Shown here: piece after piece, positions 25,196 to 33,029 of the stretch
Layout: each line of letters begins with the position of its first letter
Position numbering within the stretch: the stretch's first letter is position 1
NCBI GenBank assembly: GCA_903857795.1
Contig: CAIOGM010000050.1
Location: forward strand, 1-36,089
Length of the DNA: 36,089 nucleotides
Reading direction: 5' to 3'
From: an uncultured Geobacter sp.
GTDB lineage: Bacteria > Desulfobacterota > Desulfuromonadia > Geobacterales > CAIOGM01
Position numbers and translations under genes: made by a program
Notes under the pieces: model-generated
Seen by the model: the letters and a program-made list of their open reading frames with translations, nothing else
Told to the model about the DNA's origin: nothing
Databases searched by the model: none

Positions 25196-27286
25196 ATGGG
25201 CGCGTTTGAAACGACCAAGATCAGGAATCTCGGCATTGTGGCTCACGGCGGGGCGGGCAAAACATCGCTGACCGAGGCCATCCTCTACACCACGGGGATG
25301 ATCGATCGTCTCGGGCGGGTGGACGATGGCACCTCCACCATGGACTTCGAGCCGGAAGAGATCAAACGGAAGATCTCCATCACGTCGGCCCTGGATCACT
25401 GCCACTGGAAGGAACACTCCATCCATATCGTCGACACCCCCGGATACGGCAACTTCATCGCCGATACCCGGGCCTGTATGCGGGCGCTGGACTGCGCGGT
25501 GGTCATCCTCTCCGCCATCTCCGGCGTCAAGGCCCAGACCGAAGAGGTCTGGGCGTGGGCCAACGAGTTCGAGATTCCCCGGATCGCCTTCGTCAACAAG
25601 ATGGACCGGGAGCGGGCCAACTTCTTTCGGGCTATCGATGACATGGAGAAGGCCCTGGGAGCCCGGGGGGTCGCCATCCAGATCCCCATGGGAGTCGAGG
25701 CGAGCTTCTCCGGCGTCATCGACCTGATCCGGATGAAGGCCTTCACCTATGCCGGCGACCAGTCCGGCAGCTGTACGGAAGGGGAGATTCCAGCCGATCT
25801 CCTGGAAGAGGCCCGGCGACTCCGCGAGATGATGGTGGAAACCGTGGCCGAGGCCTATGACGCCCTCACGGAGAAGTATCTGGAAAGCGGCGAGCTGACC
25901 GAGGAGGAGATCCTGGACGGCTTACGGGTTGGCACCATGCGCAACACCTTTACCCCGGTCCTCTGCGGCTCCGCCATGCAGAATATCGGCGTGGCTCACC
26001 TCCTGGATGCTGTCTGCGCTCATCTCCCTTCCCCCCTGGACCGGACCCCGGCCGTGGGGAGCGGCCCCAAGAGCGGCGAGATCGTCCAGCGGGCGCCTGC
26101 CGAGTCGGAGCCGTTCTCGGCCCTGGTCTTCAAGACCACCTCCGACCCCTACACCGGCAAGATCACCATCTTCCGGGTCTATTCCGGTCTGCTCAACTCC
26201 GACTCCCTGATCTACAACTCCACCAAGGATGTTCAGGAGCGGATCGGTCAGCTCTTCGAGCTGGAGGGGAAGAAGCAGAAACCGATCAAGCAGGCGGTGG
26301 CCGGCGACATCGTGGCGGTGGCCAAGCTCAAGGAGACCGTCACCGGCGATACCCTCTGCGACGAATCCAATCCCATCGTCTATGAACCGGCAAAACAGCT
26401 CCTGCCGGTGATCTCCTATGCCATCGAACCGAAGACCAAGGCCGACGAGGACAAGATCCACAATGCCCTCCACCGGATGATCGAGGAGGAGCCGACCCTG
26501 GAGTCCCACCGCGACACCCAGACCAAGGAGATGATCATCTCCGGCATGGGGCAGGTCCACCTGGAGGTCATCGTCGAGAAGCTGAAGCGGAAGTTCGGGG
26601 TGGAGGTGCTCCTCAAGACCCCCAAGGTCCCCTATCTGGAGACCATCCGTGGCAACGCCAAGGTGCAGGGAAAATACAAGAAGCAGTCCGGGGGACGGGG
26701 GCAGTTTGGCGACTGCTGGATCGAGATGTCCCCCACCGGCCGGGGAGAAGGGTACATCTTCGAAGACAAGATCGTCGGCGGGGTCATTCCCCGCCAGTAT
26801 ATCCCGGCGGTGGACAAGGGGATTCATGAGGCGTCCCAGGAGGGGTTCCTGGCCGGCTATCCGGTGGTTGACTTCAAGGTCGCCCTGGTCTACGGCTCCT
26901 TTCACACGGTTGATTCTTCGGAGATGGCCTTCAAGGTGGCCGGTTCCATGGCGTTCAAGAAGGCGATGGAGCTCTGCAAGCCGGTCCTTCTGGAGCCCAT
27001 CGTCACCATGAAGGTCACCGTTCCCGACGAGAGCATGGGGGAGGTCATCGGTGATCTGAACTCCCGGCGCGGCAAGGTGGTCGGGGTGGAGCCCAAGGCC
27101 AACTCCCAGATCATCCGTGCGGTGGTTCCCATGTCCGAGGTGCTGGCCTACTCCAACGACCTCAAGTCGATGACCAGCGACCGGGGGCTCTTCAGCATGG
27201 AATTTTCCCATTATGAAGAGGTCCCCGGTCATATGGCGCAGAAGGTCATAGCCGAGGCGGCCGCGGAAAAGAGCGCCAGGGGATAG
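25196..27286 (+). CDS. Elongation factor G-like GTPase (EF-G2 type)
   Basis: The product has 696 residues with the EF-G domain layout (G domain, II, III with GRGQFGDCW, IV and V). G1 is AHGGAGKT (16-23), unlike the AHIDAGKT of canonical EF-G. Switch I reads EEIKRKISI where EF-G has an ERGITI-type run. G3 is DTPGYGNF (80-87), so Tyr84 stands at the place of the catalytic His of DTPGHVDF. G4 is NKMD (134-137). This matches the EF-G2/EF-G-like subfamily, whose translocation role is uncertain and which can have altered GTPase activity. It starts with AAGGGGGG before ATG 25196, and a terminator follows the stop. I therefore avoid the symbol fusA. Confidence 0.88.
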   Translation: MGAFETTKIRNLGIVAHGGAGKTSLTEAILYTTGMIDRLGRVDDGTSTMDFEPEEIKRKISITSALDHCHWKEHSIHIVDTPGYGNFIADTRACMRALDCAVVILSAISGVKAQTEEVWAWANEFEIPRIAFVNKMDRERANFFRAIDDMEKALGARGVAIQIPMGVEASFSGVIDLIRMKAFTYAGDQSGSCTEGEIPADLLEEARRLREMMVETVAEAYDALTEKYLESGELTEEEILDGLRVGTMRNTFTPVLCGSAMQNIGVAHLLDAVCAHLPSPLDRTPAVGSGPKSGEIVQRAPAESEPFSALVFKTTSDPYTGKITIFRVYSGLLNSDSLIYNSTKDVQERIGQLFELEGKKQKPIKQAVAGDIVAVAKLKETVTGDTLCDESNPIVYEPAKQLLPVISYAIEPKTKADEDKIHNALHRMIEEEPTLESHRDTQTKEMIISGMGQVHLEVIVEKLKRKFGVEVLLKTPKVPYLETIRGNAKVQGKYKKQSGGRGQFGDCWIEMSPTGRGEGYIFEDKIVGGVIPRQYIPAVDKGIHEASQEGFLAGYPVVDFKVALVYGSFHTVDSSEMAFKVAGSMAFKKAMELCKPVLLEPIVTMKVTVPDESMGEVIGDLNSRRGKVVGVEPKANSQIIRAVVPMSEVLAYSNDLKSMTSDRGLFSMEFSHYEEVPGHMAQKVIAEAAAEKSARG

Positions 27287-27297
27287 GGGCGGGTAGC

Positions 27298-27332
27298 GAC
27301 CGACCCCCGCCGGGGGGCGGTCTGATCTTTTT
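27298..27332 (+). terminator. Terminator after the EF-G-like gene
   Basis: GACCGACCCCC pairs with GGGGGCGGTC across a short loop and a TTTTT run follows at 27328-27332. It separates the EF-G-like gene from the SPOR-domain gene. Confidence 0.75.
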
Positions 27333-27366
27333 GGTTCCCGGCCGGTCCGGGTGAGGGAGTGCTGGT

Positions 27367-28422
27367 ATGAAGAGTGTGAGGCAGATGGAAAAGGACGGTC
27401 AGATGGAAACTTCGCGTGAGGCTCTTCTCGGGGGGTGGAGGCGGATTCTCCTGCTGTTGATCCTCGTCCTGCTGGCGCTCTTTGCCTATCTCTATTATTT
27501 CACGGATCTGATCAAGAACCATGGCGCAACGCAGCAGGCGGTCACTACGGGTCGCAAGCCGTTACCCCGCAAGGGAGGGGCGTTGGGCGTCAGCTCATCG
27601 TCAGTAACTGGGGTGCAGGCCGGCGTCTCCTCGGCAAAACAGGGGGTGAAGCCCCTCCCTGCGGCGCCCAAGGGGGGAGCAGTTGTCCCGCCGAAACCGG
27701 TTCCGGTCGCTCCTCAGATCCCGAAACAGGCGCCTCAGGCGGCTCCAGCGCCGAAACCGGTGGCCGCAACCGCTGAACAGCCGAAGAAAGGGGCTCCGCC
27801 GCAACAGAAGAGTGTGGTTCCCCCTCTCCCTGCGGCCGCGGTCGCTCCCAAGAAGCTTATCCCTGTTGTCGCGCCTCCTGCCCCTGTCGCCGTGGCCAAA
27901 CCCCAACCCCCCGCGCCGGCAGTAACGCCCAGCGCCAAGGCGGCGCCGGGGGAGGTCGGTGGCAAGGGGAGCTATGCCGTCCACTGCGGCCCCTTCGTGA
28001 CCCTCCAGGAGCTGGGAGCGGCCCGGGGAGTTCTGAAGAGGGAGGGGTTGACTCCGCTCCTCATTCACGGCCCCCGGCGGCCGACCATCATGTATCGCCT
28101 CTATGTGGCGACGTTCCCCGACGCTCCGGCAGCCGCCGTGGAGCTGCACAAGGTCCAGGCGGCGGCCCCCGGCGCCTTTGTGCTCCCCCTGAACGATGCT
28201 CACGAACTCTTTGCCGGCTCATACCACGAAGAGAAGGGGGCCAAGCAGGAGCAGGAGCGGTTGTCGGCAAAGGGGATAAAGGTGGAACTCCGGCAGGTCA
28301 CCACCCCGGTGGCGTCCCGGCTGCTCACTGCCGGAGCGTTCCCGACCCGGGAGGCGGCGAGCCCCCTGGTCGCTCGTCTGAAGAAGGAGGGGATTCCCTG
28401 CAGCATCACCCGCCATCGCTGA
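27367..28422 (+). CDS. Membrane-anchored tandem SPOR-like domain protein
   Basis: The product has 351 residues. A short cytoplasmic N-terminus (about 25 residues) leads to one membrane helix (RILLLLILVLLALFAYLYYF, about 26-44). A long Pro/Ala/Lys/Val-rich linker (about 55-195) spans the periplasm. The C-terminus has two SPOR-like modules: YAVHCGPFVTLQELGAARGVLKREG with RLYVATFPD, and the second with AHELFAGSYHEEKGAKQEQERLSAKG then RLLTAGAFPTREAASPLVARLKKEG. SPOR domains bind denuded peptidoglycan at division sites. ATG at 27367 has a GGGAG site. The next gene starts one base after its stop. The specific role is unknown. Confidence 0.78.
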   Translation: MKSVRQMEKDGQMETSREALLGGWRRILLLLILVLLALFAYLYYFTDLIKNHGATQQAVTTGRKPLPRKGGALGVSSSSVTGVQAGVSSAKQGVKPLPAAPKGGAVVPPKPVPVAPQIPKQAPQAAPAPKPVAATAEQPKKGAPPQQKSVVPPLPAAAVAPKKLIPVVAPPAPVAVAKPQPPAPAVTPSAKAAPGEVGGKGSYAVHCGPFVTLQELGAARGVLKREGLTPLLIHGPRRPTIMYRLYVATFPDAPAAAVELHKVQAAAPGAFVLPLNDAHELFAGSYHEEKGAKQEQERLSAKGIKVELRQVTTPVASRLLTAGAFPTREAASPLVARLKKEGIPCSITRHR

Positions 28423-28423
28423 C

Positions 28424-29302
28424 GTGGAGCCTGGAGCCGGGAAAGGGGTCGTCAGGCTCTCGCCGGCTGCTGCCCGGTTGGTGGGAGTCGAGGCACGGGA
28501 AGAGGAGCAGCTGGAGTTTCTAGGAGGAAGCTCTTCCCTGCCGTTCTCTGAAACCTGCAGCGTCATCTGTGTTCTGGCGGGGAGCCGGAATCGGCGGGTC
28601 CAGGAGGCGGCGCTTCAGACGCTCCGTTCCATGACTCCGGACAACCTGGCCGAGTTTCTCTCCGACCCGCAGCTGCATCCCCGGTTCCTGGAGTTGATCG
28701 CCCGGGTTCATGCCGGAGATCCTGTCGTGGCCGAACTGGTGGTCTGGCACCCGGCGGTTACGGACTCCACCCGCAAGGCGCTGGAGGGGGCCCCGGCGGA
28801 TTCACTGATCGGCGAGGCTGAGAGTGAGGGGGACGAAGAGGCGCAGCTCACTGAATTCGGGATTCCCGAAAGCGAGATCGACCCGGTGCAGTTCCGGACC
28901 GCCTATCAGCAGGTGCAGCAGCTGGGGATCGGTGACAAGATCAAGATGGCCCTGACCGGCAACAAGGAGTGGCGCACCGTTCTCATCAAGGAGACCATCA
29001 AGCCGATCTGCTGCTCGGTGCTGAAAAACCCCCGGATTACCGAGTCTGAGATCCTCACCATTGCCCGCTCCTCCGTGCAGTATGATGACATCATCCGGAT
29101 CATCTGCGCCAATCGGGAGTGGCTCAAGAAGTATCCGATCCGTAAGGCTCTGGTGGAAAATCACCGGACCCCTCTGCCGGTGGCGTTGAAACTGCTCGCC
29201 ACTCTCGGGGAAAAAGATCTTGCATCACTGGGGAAGAGCAAGAACATCTCGTCGGTGATCGCCACCCAGGCGCGAAAGATGGCCCTGACGAAGCGGAGTT
29301 AA
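28424..29302 (+). CDS. HEAT-like deltaproteobacterial protein
   Basis: The product has 292 residues, predicted mostly helical and soluble. An N-terminal half contains a HEAT-like stretch (RNRRVQEAALQTLRSMTPDNLAEFL). The C-terminal half has a repeated pattern I recall from conserved deltaproteobacterial proteins: KIKMALTGNKEWRTVLIKE, then PRITESEILTIARSSVQYDDIIRIICANREWLKKYPIRKALVENHRTPLPVALKLL, then KDLASLGKSKNIS. Function unknown; likely a protein-binding scaffold. The start is a GTG one base after the SPOR gene stop and has no clear ribosome-binding site, so the true start may be downstream or translation may be coupled. It lies 25 bases before the MglA-like gene. Confidence 0.75.
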   Translation: MEPGAGKGVVRLSPAAARLVGVEAREEEQLEFLGGSSSLPFSETCSVICVLAGSRNRRVQEAALQTLRSMTPDNLAEFLSDPQLHPRFLELIARVHAGDPVVAELVVWHPAVTDSTRKALEGAPADSLIGEAESEGDEEAQLTEFGIPESEIDPVQFRTAYQQVQQLGIGDKIKMALTGNKEWRTVLIKETIKPICCSVLKNPRITESEILTIARSSVQYDDIIRIICANREWLKKYPIRKALVENHRTPLPVALKLLATLGEKDLASLGKSKNISSVIATQARKMALTKRS

Positions 29303-29327
29303 ACCGTATCAGGAAAGGAGAAGTCTC

Positions 29328-30341
29328 ATGGCGCTGTTCAATCATGTCAGCAGGGAAGCAAACGCTAAGATCGTCTACTTTGGTCCCGGGAACGGCGGGA
29401 AGGAGAGCTCGGTCACTCATGTCTATCGGAAACTTAGTCCCGACTCCCGCAGCCCCTTCAAGGCGATGTCGCTGCAGGGGGACCGGATGCTCTGCTTCGA
29501 TTTCCGTCCCGCGGAAAAAGGGATAGACGGGTACAACGTCCGGTTTCATCTCTATACGGTGGTCGATGAGGTTCAGAAGCTGAACAGCTGGAAGATGGCG
29601 CTCAAGGGGGCCGACGGTGTCCTCTTCGTGGCCGATTCCCATCCGGCCAGGCAGAAGGAGAACCTGGACCGGTTGAACGAGCTGCAGGAGCTCCTTGCGG
29701 CGGAGGGGTCCGGTATCGACCAGATTCCCTTGGTGATCCAGTACAACCGGCGCGACATCCCCGACGCCGTCCCCCTGGATGAGATGCAGCGGCGACTCAA
29801 CCGCTTCAACGTCCCGGGTTTTCCCTCGGTCGCCACCAGCGGCGACGGGGTTCTCCCGCCACTCTCCTGCCTGATCAAGATGGTCCTCGGCCGGATCAGG
29901 GAGACACTGGCGGCTAAGGCCAAGGTTGAGGCGGAGGTTGAGGCTGAGGTTGAGGCTGAGGTTGAGGTTGAGGTAGAGGCTAAGGCTGAGGCTGAGGCTG
30001 AGGTTGAGGTTGAGGTTGAGACCGGGGCGATGCCGGAAGCCGCCCAAGAAACGGTGACCGGGGGGGCCGAGGCGTCGGCAGTAATCCCGGAGGTCGATGC
30101 TGCACCCTCCTGCGAAGAGCCTGCAGAGCCGCTCCCTGGTGAAGAAGCGGTTTCCGCCGAAGAAGCTGCCACTGCCGAAGAAGCCGCACCGGAAGAGGAA
30201 GAGTTCCGTCTGGAGATCACCGGGGGGGGCTTTCTGGCCGACGGCAGGCTGACCGTTCCGGTCATGGTCACCGCAGGAGGTGGGTGCCGGGAGTTCAACC
30301 TGGTCATCACCCTTGCCGGGGTCGAGCCGCGCCAGGGGTGA
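29328..30341 (+). CDS. MglA-like GTPase-fold protein with degenerate active site and acidic linker
   Basis: The product has 337 residues. Residues 1-197 resemble the MglA small-GTPase fold (KIVYFGPGNGGKESS, FDFRPAEKG, FHLYTVVDEVQ, ALKGADGVLFVADSHP, LVIQYNRRDIPDA). The P-loop ends in GKE (Lys25, Glu26) where MglA has GKT/S. The PGQ switch is replaced by VDE (79-81), so the catalytic Gln is missing. NKRD is NRRD (140-143). Nucleotide binding or hydrolysis is thus probably impaired. Residues about 199-231 are a Val/Ala/Glu repeat encoded by GAGGTT-type hexamers. A Glu/Ala-rich stretch and a small C-terminal beta-rich domain (FRLEITGGGFLADGRLTVPV) follow. Ends at a strong terminator. Part of the SPOR/HEAT cassette. 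Confidence 0.8.
   Translation: MALFNHVSREANAKIVYFGPGNGGKESSVTHVYRKLSPDSRSPFKAMSLQGDRMLCFDFRPAEKGIDGYNVRFHLYTVVDEVQKLNSWKMALKGADGVLFVADSHPARQKENLDRLNELQELLAAEGSGIDQIPLVIQYNRRDIPDAVPLDEMQRRLNRFNVPGFPSVATSGDGVLPPLSCLIKMVLGRIRETLAAKAKVEAEVEAEVEAEVEVEVEAKAEAEAEVEVEVETGAMPEAAQETVTGGAEASAVIPEVDAAPSCEEPAEPLPGEEAVSAEEAATAEEAAPEEEEFRLEITGGGFLADGRLTVPVMVTAGGGCREFNLVITLAGVEPRQG
29923..30020 (+). repeat. GAGGTT-type hexamer repeat within the MglA-like gene
   Basis: About 98 bases are built from near-perfect hexamers GAGGTT and GAGGCT, which give a VE/AE dipeptide pattern in the protein. The repeat unit is the same as the AACCTC repeat on the opposite strand at 25154-25176. It keeps the reading frame because its unit is six bases. 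Confidence 0.9.
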
Positions 30342-30367
30342 TGAAATCAGCGTAATCTGCAGGGAGG

Positions 30368-30403
30368 CCGCTCACCCGCGTCGGCGCGGGGCGAGCGGTT
30401 TTT
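30368..30403 (+). terminator. Strong terminator after the MglA-like gene
   Basis: CCGCTC (30368-30373) pairs with GAGCGG (30393-30398) and CCCGCG pairs with CGCGGG around a TCGG loop; TTTTT follows at 30399-30403. It closes the cassette before the radical SAM gene. Confidence 0.88.
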
Positions 30404-30436
30404 CTATCTGGGGAGAGCCGCCGGAGGGGACGAAAG

Positions 30437-31318
30437 ATGCCGCAGTACGTCGAACCGCTGTTCCGGCCGCCATCGGAGGCCCGGTCACTCATCTTCCAGA
30501 TTACCATCGGCTGCTCCCAGAACAGCTGCGCCTTCTGCGGCATGTACAAGGGGAAGCGGTTCCGGCTGAGGCCGGTGGCGGAGATCCTGGCGGAGATCGC
30601 CGCCATCCCGAGAGGGTATGCCGCTCAAGTGGATCGGGTTTTTCTTGCCGATGGTGACGCCCTGGTCTACCCCTTTCAGGGGCTCTGCAGCATCCTTGAC
30701 CTCCTTTCTGAAACCTTCCCCCGCCTGACCCGGGTCGGCTCCTACGCCTCCCCCAACAGCCTGACCACCAAGAGTCTGACGGAGCTGGAGAGGCTGCGGG
30801 AGAAGCGGCTCAAGCTCCTCTACTTCGGCCTGGAGTCCGGCGACGACGAGACCCTCCGGGCCGTCAATAAGGGATTTTGTGGAGGCGAGATGGCGGAGCT
30901 CTGCCTCAAGGCGCGGAGCGCGGGGATGAAGCTCTCGGTGACCGCCATCCTGGGGCTGGCGGGAAAGGGGAGGAGTCTGGAGCACGCCCGGGCGACGGCA
31001 GGGTGGGTCAACCGGGTCTCACCGGAGTATTTCTCCCTGTTGACCCTCTTCCTGCGCCACAACGACGAGTTCATCCGCTCCCTGGAGCAGTGCAACCGCC
31101 GGGAGCTGATGGAGGAGGCGCGGGAGATCGTCGGAGAGCTGAACCCGGCCAGGACCATCCTCCGCTCCAACCATGTCTCCAACTTTCTCAACCTGGCGGG
31201 GAGCTATCCCAAGGATCGGGAGCGGCTCATCGCCGACGCGGATAACGCCATGATTCAGGCAGGGCGAATACCGGGGTTCCTTGAGGAGATTCCGGGTTAT
31301 GGGGAGGAGTATTACTGA
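30437..31318 (+). CDS. Radical SAM protein with CX4CX2C motif
   Basis: The product has 293 residues. The 4Fe-4S motif is C26-X4-C31-X2-C34 (GCSQNSCAFCGMYKGKRF), not the classic CX3CX2C. The barrel is recognisable from VFLADGDALVYPF, the GSYASPNSLTTKSLTEL run and YFGLESGDDETLRAVNKG, as in the widely distributed IGCS-N-C-FC-MYK group of radical SAM proteins, whose reaction is unknown. No extra domain is seen. A weak purine-rich stretch (GGAGGGGACG) precedes the start. It stands after a terminator and 64 bases before the pyrophosphatase gene, and may be transcribed on its own or with that gene. Confidence 0.85.
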   Translation: MPQYVEPLFRPPSEARSLIFQITIGCSQNSCAFCGMYKGKRFRLRPVAEILAEIAAIPRGYAAQVDRVFLADGDALVYPFQGLCSILDLLSETFPRLTRVGSYASPNSLTTKSLTELERLREKRLKLLYFGLESGDDETLRAVNKGFCGGEMAELCLKARSAGMKLSVTAILGLAGKGRSLEHARATAGWVNRVSPEYFSLLTLFLRHNDEFIRSLEQCNRRELMEEAREIVGELNPARTILRSNHVSNFLNLAGSYPKDRERLIADADNAMIQAGRIPGFLEEIPGYGEEYY

Positions 31319-31353: not shown

Positions 31354-31382
31354 TTTTGACCGACATTTTACGGGAGAATACC

Positions 31383-33029
31383 TTGAGTAAACAGATCTAC
31401 GTCATCGGCCATCGGAATCCGGATACCGATTCCATCGCTTCGGCAATAGCCTACGCGGAGCTGAAAAAGAAATTGGGGTACTCAAAAGTCCGGGCAGCCA
31501 TGGCGGGGACCCCCAATCCCCAGACCCGCTCTATCCTGGAACGGTTGGAGATCGATCCCCCCCTTTACCTGGCCGATGTGCACCCCAAGGTCCGTGACGT
31601 CATCAAACGGCAGCCGGTTACCGCCGCGGCGACCATCTCCCTGAAGGAGGCGCTGGAGCTGTTTCATCGACATAACGTCCGGGTCCTCCCCGTGGTGGAC
31701 GGAAAGAATGCCCCACTGGGGATCGTCACTCTCCTGCGGCTGTCGGAAAAATACCTGTTGGCCGGCACGGACCGGATGCGTGGAGTGGATACCTCCCTCC
31801 GCTCCCTGGCGGCCTGTCTCGGGGCGACCTTCATCACCGGTGACTCCCGGGACACCATTGAACACCTCCACCTCTTCATCGGCGCCATGCGGGAGGAGTC
31901 GTTCACCAGCCGGATCGAGGGGTATGACCCGGCGTCTCTTCTGGTCATGACCGGGGATCGCCGCTCCATTCAGCATGCGGCCATCCAGATGGGGGTAAGG
32001 CTCCTGGTGGTGACGGGGGGACCGCACGTGGACGAAGAGCTGCAAGAGCTGGCCCGGACAAACGGGGTCACGATCCTTTCCACCCCTTATGATACGGCAA
32101 CCGCCGCTTCCCTGACCCGGCTTTCCACGCCGCTGACGGAATTCGTGGAGGCGCACTATGAACAGGTGGGGGTGGCCGAACCGTTGGAGAACCTCCGGCT
32201 CAAGCTCCTCCACTCGGGAGAGTCAGCGGTGGTGGTGGTGGAGGAGGACGGAACCGTGGCCGGGGTCGCCACCAAGTCGTCGCTTTTGGCGCCGCTCCCC
32301 TATGCCCTGATCCTCGTGGACCATAATGAGCTGGCCCAGGCGGTGCCGGGGGCCGAGTCGGTGGAGATCCTGGAGGTGATTGATCATCACAAGCTCGGCA
32401 ATCCCCCCACGAACCAGCCGATCACCTTCATGGCGGCGCCGGTGGGGAGCACCTGCACCGTGGTGGCCTCTCTCTACCGGGAGCGGGGGATCGATCCGGA
32501 ACCGCGGATCGCGGCGCTCCTTTTGGCGGGGATTCTCACGGATACCGTCATCCTCAAGTCGCCCACCACCACCACCCGGGACCGGGAGCTTGTCACCTGG
32601 CTGGAGCCGCTGGCAGGGCTCGATCATGCCGCGTTCGGCCGGGAGATCTTCTCTTCCTGTAGCGGGTTTTCCGCCTACGACTCTCCGGAGAGGGCGATTC
32701 GCGCCGACTTCAAGCAGTTTGCCGCCGGAGAGACGCTCTTCGGCATCGGGCAGGTGGAGGTGGTCGGCTTCGATGAATTCTACGCCATCAGGGAGACCCT
32801 GCGCGCCTCCCTCAGAACGGTGCGGGAGGAGGAGCGTCTCGCCATGGCGGGGCTCATGGTGACCGACATCTACACCGAGTCGACCCTCTTCCTGGTGGAG
32901 GGGAAGAACGAGCTGGCCCATGTCATGGGGTACCCCCAGATCGAGCCGCACCTCTACGAACTGAAGGGGGTCATGTCCCGCAAGAAGCAGATGGTGCCGC
33001 ACCTGCTGAAGGTACTGGGGGCGCTCTGA
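31383..33029 (+). CDS. Putative manganese-dependent inorganic pyrophosphatase (CBS-DRTGG)
   Basis: The product has 548 residues, much longer than a plain family-II pyrophosphatase. The DHH catalytic domain begins IYVIGHRNPDTDSIASAIAYAEL. A regulatory insert of about 230 residues follows, holding two CBS domains (the first near FHRHNVRVLPVVDGKNAPLGIV, the second near LLHSGESAVVVVEEDGTVAGVAT) around a DRTGG domain (LVMTGDRRSIQHAAIQMGV). The DHH motif is VIDHHKLGNP, and DHHA2 follows with LAGILTDTVILKSPTTTTRDRE. Such enzymes hydrolyse pyrophosphate and are tuned by adenine nucleotides. The start is a TTG with GGGAG seven bases upstream; a frame begun earlier runs into the repeat. No operon partner is obvious. 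Confidence 0.88.
   Translation: MSKQIYVIGHRNPDTDSIASAIAYAELKKKLGYSKVRAAMAGTPNPQTRSILERLEIDPPLYLADVHPKVRDVIKRQPVTAAATISLKEALELFHRHNVRVLPVVDGKNAPLGIVTLLRLSEKYLLAGTDRMRGVDTSLRSLAACLGATFITGDSRDTIEHLHLFIGAMREESFTSRIEGYDPASLLVMTGDRRSIQHAAIQMGVRLLVVTGGPHVDEELQELARTNGVTILSTPYDTATAASLTRLSTPLTEFVEAHYEQVGVAEPLENLRLKLLHSGESAVVVVEEDGTVAGVATKSSLLAPLPYALILVDHNELAQAVPGAESVEILEVIDHHKLGNPPTNQPITFMAAPVGSTCTVVASLYRERGIDPEPRIAALLLAGILTDTVILKSPTTTTRDRELVTWLEPLAGLDHAAFGREIFSSCSGFSAYDSPERAIRADFKQFAAGETLFGIGQVEVVGFDEFYAIRETLRASLRTVREEERLAMAGLMVTDIYTESTLFLVEGKNELAHVMGYPQIEPHLYELKGVMSRKKQMVPHLLKVLGAL

Follow-up and report, generated by a model that had tools for sequence, protein, structure and literature searches.

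A conserved SPOR, alpha-solenoid and MglA2 gene block behind an EF-G II-like gene in Geobacterales: a possible adaptor module with a pseudo-GTPase

Three closely packed genes on the forward strand of contig CAIOGM010000050.1 from an uncultured Geobacter sp. (GCA_903857795.1; order Geobacterales, class Desulfuromonadia, phylum Desulfobacterota) encode a SPOR-domain membrane protein, an alpha-solenoid and MglA2, a degenerate MglA-type protein. The window, i.e., the whole stretch of DNA that was analysed, comprises 36,089 nucleotides, and the features of the locus are compiled in Table 1. The open reading frames of the initial annotation were confirmed, the three genes being separated by 1 and 25 bases. 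Of the two terminators that had been proposed to flank the block, the hairpin after MglA2 is indeed strong, but the one before the SPOR gene is weak. A terminator scan of the window overall yielded no more candidates than shuffled sequences.

Table 1. Features of the SPOR/solenoid/MglA2 locus (positions refer to the window).
Feature	Position	Strand	Remark
EF-G paralogue, 696 aa, EFG II-like	25196..27286	+	constant upstream neighbour of the solenoid gene; beyond the cassette initially annotated
Weak terminator candidate	27298..27333	+	hairpin between EF-G and SPOR genes, T5 at distance; z -1.16
SPOR-domain membrane protein, 351 aa	27367..28422	+	
Predicted transmembrane helix, residues 27-45	27445..27501	+	one strong stretch
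Best-scoring SPOR domain, residues 283-348	28213..28410	+	Pfam
Alpha-solenoid, 292 aa, HEAT/LRV-like	28424..29302	+	GTG start; cytoplasmic; without curated family
N-terminal helical lobe, residues 14-122	28463..28789	+	variable; many relatives from other classes lack it
C-terminal solenoid domain, residues 154-291	28883..29296	+	pI 10.1; conserved core; occurs alone across the phylum
MglA2, 337 aa	29328..30341	+	degenerate G domain of the MglA type, followed by an acidic linker and a C-terminal beta domain
P-loop GPGNGGKE	29382..29405	+	Lys25 kept, Mg-binding Thr26 to Glu
Switch 1, position 54	29487..29489	+	Thr to Met
Switch 2, position aligned to Gln82	29568..29570	+	Glu
In-frame 6/12-base tandem repeat	29912..30020	+	encodes Glu/Val/Ala-rich acidic linker
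C-terminal beta-strand domain, residues 294-328	30207..30311	+	also in MglA2 outside the order
Strong intrinsic terminator, end of block	30361..30405	+	z -4.54; 0/200 shuffles equal it

The SPOR protein consists of a short cytoplasmic N-terminus, one transmembrane helix, a Pro/Ala-rich linker and C-terminal SPOR domains. It matched Pfam PF05036 in two stretches (E 2.1e-12; 47.6 bits, gathering cut-off 21), which together with the predicted helix is in agreement with its proposed nature as a probable peptidoglycan-binding-type membrane protein. PF05036 domain(s) and the single-TM architecture are shared with FtsN, DamX, RlpA and DedD; in contrast to these, the SPOR gene of the window has no tie to a division operon.

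For the solenoid, the AlphaFold2 model (pLDDT 85) consists of two all-helical lobes joined by a low-confidence linker. It contains repeated helical hairpins, as expected for the HEAT-like scaffold that had been suggested, so that this description fits the predicted fold. Searches of Pfam, NCBIfam and PHROGs with the window protein gave no significant match, and a sequence search of the PDB returned nothing significant. Its relatives showed weak matches to HEAT, HEAT_2 and LRV_2 (best 7.7e-5, HEAT_2), and comparison of the model using Foldseek and VIA-align resulted in generic ARM/HEAT/PUF matches only. The protein has the helical repeat fold in common with the HEAT, ARM and LRV alpha-solenoids and an NP-x-TP repeat signature with LRV, but differs in having no significant match to any curated family. 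Its C-terminal domain is strongly basic in all members examined (pI 9.8-11.5), and across 21 members the core has 30 invariant columns. Many genomes of the order encode, at a different site, another helical-repeat family without annotation (~265 aa; L096-L103), consisting of two copies of one ~90-residue unit with ~26% identity to the solenoid C-domain. Apparent solenoid fusions of 738-854 aa in L186-L188 were rejected because they arise from reading through the overlapping EF-G gene out of frame. Proteins in which the C-domain is joined to two or three DUF4388 domains (L184:3200-5974, L185:808-3618 and L199:2785-3972) look like real fusions, and those of L184 and L185 are followed by an MglA gene at a distance of 1.3-1.9 kb. 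A literature search on DUF4388 together with MglA found nothing.

MglA2 of the window aligned to Myxococcus xanthus MglA with an E-value of 1e-45, and Foldseek matched its model to MglA-GDP with a TM score of 0.94 (rmsd 1.3). Beyond the MglA fold, the model shows a long helix, the acidic linker and a small beta domain. The G-domain fold is shared with the Ras-like polarity GTPase MglA of M. xanthus and Thermus (~42% identity over 190 residues), and the threonine of the TxxG motif in switch 2 is kept. In contrast to these proteins, MglA2 lacks T26, T54, G81, Q82 and the lysine of NKxD (T26>E, T54>M, G81>D, Q82>E, NKRD>NRRD), carries the additional C-terminal linker and beta domain and has no adjoining MglB; the MglB of this genome sits with the canonical MglA at G000:C38. 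In M. xanthus MglA, Mg2+ coordination is completed by Thr54, and Arg53 acts as the arginine finger (PMC6876712). The linker repeat comprises 18 hexamer copies, and a strain-to-strain change of its length is possible without a frameshift. A 947-aa MglA2 (L208:243-3086) has an extremely acidic linker that is ~700 residues long.

Proteins of this type have been described before. In the accessible part of the account by Fremgen et al. (2010; PMC3000849), the group II 'MglA2' proteins include G. sulfurreducens NP_952979.1 (291 aa) and have in common with the window protein the size class (225-327 aa), an extra C-terminal domain and no MglB partner; the same part makes no mention of motif loss, a solenoid, a SPOR gene or an EF-G neighbour. 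NP_952979.1 is likely the G. sulfurreducens form of this MglA2 gene. A literature search for functional data on G. sulfurreducens MglA returned no study of MglA function by title or abstract.

The damaged GTPase site that had been noticed in the window protein is real and common to the whole order. The full motif set (Lys25, Thr26, Thr54, Gln82 and NKxD) was present in all 25 MglA2 proteins from outside the order and in none of the 94 distinct MglA2 sequences inside it. Among these 94, Thr54 was found in 1, Gln82 in 4, Thr26 or Ser in 33 and a strict NKxD in 62, and in the genus of the window neither Thr26 nor a strict NKxD occurs (0/4 each). In a maximum-likelihood tree, a single branch (100/100, length 0.48) separated all MglA2 proteins of the order from the rest; therefore, the loss is most simply explained by one event in the stem, with further decay later. 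The branching of the tree within the order is not trusted, owing to the thinning of its rows and to some long terminal branches. In the same tree, MglA1 formed one clade (98/92); MglA2 as a whole is not shown as one clade. Despite the decay of the G domain, the N-terminus, Lys25 and the C-terminal beta domain are conserved. The linkers are net negative in 98% of the rows of the order and 96% of those of the phylum; acidic linkers are common and no proof of contact with the solenoid. Since MglA2 outside the order is fully armed by motif, the term pseudo-GTPase fits one lineage and not the module.

The loci in which gene order was examined more closely had been chosen for containing the solenoid or MglA2, so the proportions apply to this selection rather than to genomes in general. 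Of the 141 genomes of the order, 133 carry the solenoid gene and 140 MglA-like genes. EF-G, SPOR, solenoid and MglA2 followed each other in that order in all 20 loci picked to cover its families. The tight SPOR-solenoid-MglA2 arrangement was present in 72 of 80 named Geobacterales/Desulfuromonadales loci (Geobacter, Geomonas, Geotalea, Oryzomonas, Trichlorobacter, Desulfuromonas and others), several of the remaining ones being cut by contig ends. This conservation is far beyond chance, and the proposal that the three genes belong together, which an absence of the co-occurrence in other genomes was to refute, survived this test within the order. At the level of the class, the solenoid occurs in 258 of 277 genomes, with EF-G upstream in 13/13 loci and SPOR in 11/13; outside the order, MglA2 followed the solenoid in only 2 of 14 class loci examined. 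Of 395 genomes sampled across the phylum, 129 have the C-terminal solenoid domain, which frequently makes up a separate protein of ~150 aa. Among 60 genomes outside the class, this domain lies directly upstream of MglA2 (~10-50 bases, same strand) in 17, compared to a roughly estimated chance expectation of ~0.05 such pairs, and it is present with no detectable MglA in 11. In some of these genomes outside the class, SPOR precedes the solenoid as well (L204-L209, L211).

The most constant neighbour of the solenoid is the EF-G gene, not MglA: where more than 3.5 kb of sequence precede the solenoid, EF-G lies upstream in 116 of 119 loci. Because of this constancy, the frequently overlapping gene ends and the persistence of the pair in loci where no birA-coaX was found upstream and in genomes with no detected MglA, EF-G is counted in the conserved string. 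As birA-coaX-EF-G is itself a conserved string, part of the linkage between EF-G and the solenoid is old gene order. The G2 motif of the window paralogue reads RKISI in place of RGITI, which is present in the other full-length EF-G of the genome, and RGITI was not seen in any solenoid-adjacent EF-G with a readable motif. A missing RGITI is the published mark of the EFG II subfamily, which Margus et al. (2011; PMC3150367) described as widespread and divergent in function. The window EF-G shares this mark, but its assignment is based solely on that motif and on an NCBIfam match of the PRK12740 type.

In the genus of the window, the block is eroding. Three of the four genomes (G001, G002 and G003) have lost the solenoid and kept EF-G, SPOR and MglA2, and G140 from another family is in the same state. 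Of the positions with at least 90% conservation in the other members, the window solenoid retains 73%, the lowest value of 21 (next 84%). The near-complete genomes G001, G002, G003 and G140 also lack true MglA and MglB, which are present in nearly all relatives. MglA2 persists in them, indicating some use without the solenoid as partner. The solenoid was missing in four of 103 good genomes of the order, all without true MglA, and 3 of the 99 others lack true MglA (naive Fisher p 8e-6). With no more than two independent losses behind it, this association can be called suggestive. The complete genomes G052, G106 and G137 retain the solenoid without true MglA.

Our tentative explanation, to which we assign a probability of about 45%, is an old adaptor module whose switch became a fixed pseudo-GTPase platform in this order. 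The three genes would be the downstream part of an old string consisting of EF-G II, SPOR, solenoid and MglA2. The solenoid would serve as a basic cytoplasmic adaptor and MglA2, a paralogue of MglA, would in most of the phylum be a working GTP switch partnering it, judging from the motifs. In the stem of the order, MglA2 would then have lost the residues for hydrolysis and Mg2+ binding and turned into a platform that no longer cycles and still serves the module. The SPOR protein, added to the module, would provide the anchor in membrane and peptidoglycan. We infer physical binding among these proteins, and contact of the acidic MglA2 tail with the basic solenoid would be the simplest link. The adaptor explanation is in agreement with the motif counts inside and outside the order, the single branch, the beta domain retained during decay, the net negative linkers, the basic solenoid domain, the structural models of solenoid and MglA2, the gene order within the order and the adjacent pairs outside the class. 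It is at odds with the rarity of MglA2 behind the solenoid in the rest of the class, the genomes with the domain and no detectable MglA, and the MglA2 proteins kept without a solenoid.

The initial annotation had suggested a polarity or division module with a pseudo-GTPase adaptor. As the GTPase damage extends over the whole order, the adaptor part is reasonable, and the suggestion is supported in part; the polarity or division part stays conjectural, given that MglA2 has no MglB partner and persists in four genomes without true MglA and MglB, and that the cassette had left out the EF-G II-like gene. The almost invariable position behind this gene, which encodes a poorly understood translation factor, also indicates that the real job of the block may not be cell polarity alone. 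The coincidence of solenoid loss with loss of true MglA-MglB in two lineages lends weak support to a polarity link, and the DUF4388 fusions in some relatives point the same way. A polarity or type IV pilus module tied to the true MglA-MglB system nevertheless appears unlikely to us: the co-loss is confined to two independent lineages, MglA2 stays where MglA-MglB is gone, and three genomes without true MglA keep the solenoid.

The main rival, in our estimate somewhat unlikely, is that the solenoid is primarily a partner of the EF-G II-like protein in translation or at the ribosome, and that MglA2 and SPOR were added later, placing or regulating it. Such a role would account for EF-G upstream of the solenoid in 20/20, 13/13, 69/69 and 14/17 loci with enough sequence, for start/stop overlaps of 1-11 bases in several of them and for the adjacency in loci where no birA-coaX was found upstream and in genomes without detected MglA. 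The strongly basic domain and the weak structural matches to PUF RNA-binding repeats would fit as well, but the PUF matches (Z ~6) are in the range of unrelated helical repeats, EF-G remains where the solenoid is lost, and the old birA-coaX-EF-G order explains part of the linkage. A further reading, in which the solenoid is a dedicated EF-G II partner and SPOR and MglA2 tether or gate a translation-linked complex at the membrane or septum, the gate being fixed as a pseudo-GTPase in Geobacter relatives, seems distinctly improbable. We consider it very improbable that the genes are neighbours by inherited order only, with MglA2 decaying toward loss. The conserved birA-coaX-EF-G order, the long branches, the NKxD loss in parts of the order and the erosion in this genus are compatible with it; however, MglA2 was present in all examined loci of the order with its N-terminus, Lys25 and beta domain conserved, and the solenoid core retains its invariant columns.

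MglA2 is a clear example from nature of how a Ras-like switch of bacteria turns into a pseudo-GTPase, with armed relatives in neighbouring classes, one branch of catalytic-residue loss, and nucleotide-recognition residues lost later in sublineages of the order. For EFG II, the solenoid represents a testable handle: a conserved, unannotated and strongly basic partner candidate. If the translation-linked complex tethered or gated by SPOR and MglA2 exists, EF-G II would gain an accessory protein that is conserved and a defined place in the cell. In Geobacter sulfurreducens, a laboratory strain amenable to genetics, the entire block can be deleted.

Directly past the terminator, the window carries a radical SAM gene (30437-31318). 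At this place, an MgtC-like gene is found in many relatives from the same order, and the adjacency of MglA2 and MgtC is conserved among them; the window differs in this respect. Further downstream (31356-33029) lies a gene for a DHH/DHHA2 phosphoesterase with CBS and DRTGG domains, i.e., of the regulated pyrophosphatase type, whose first listed in-frame start is TTG.
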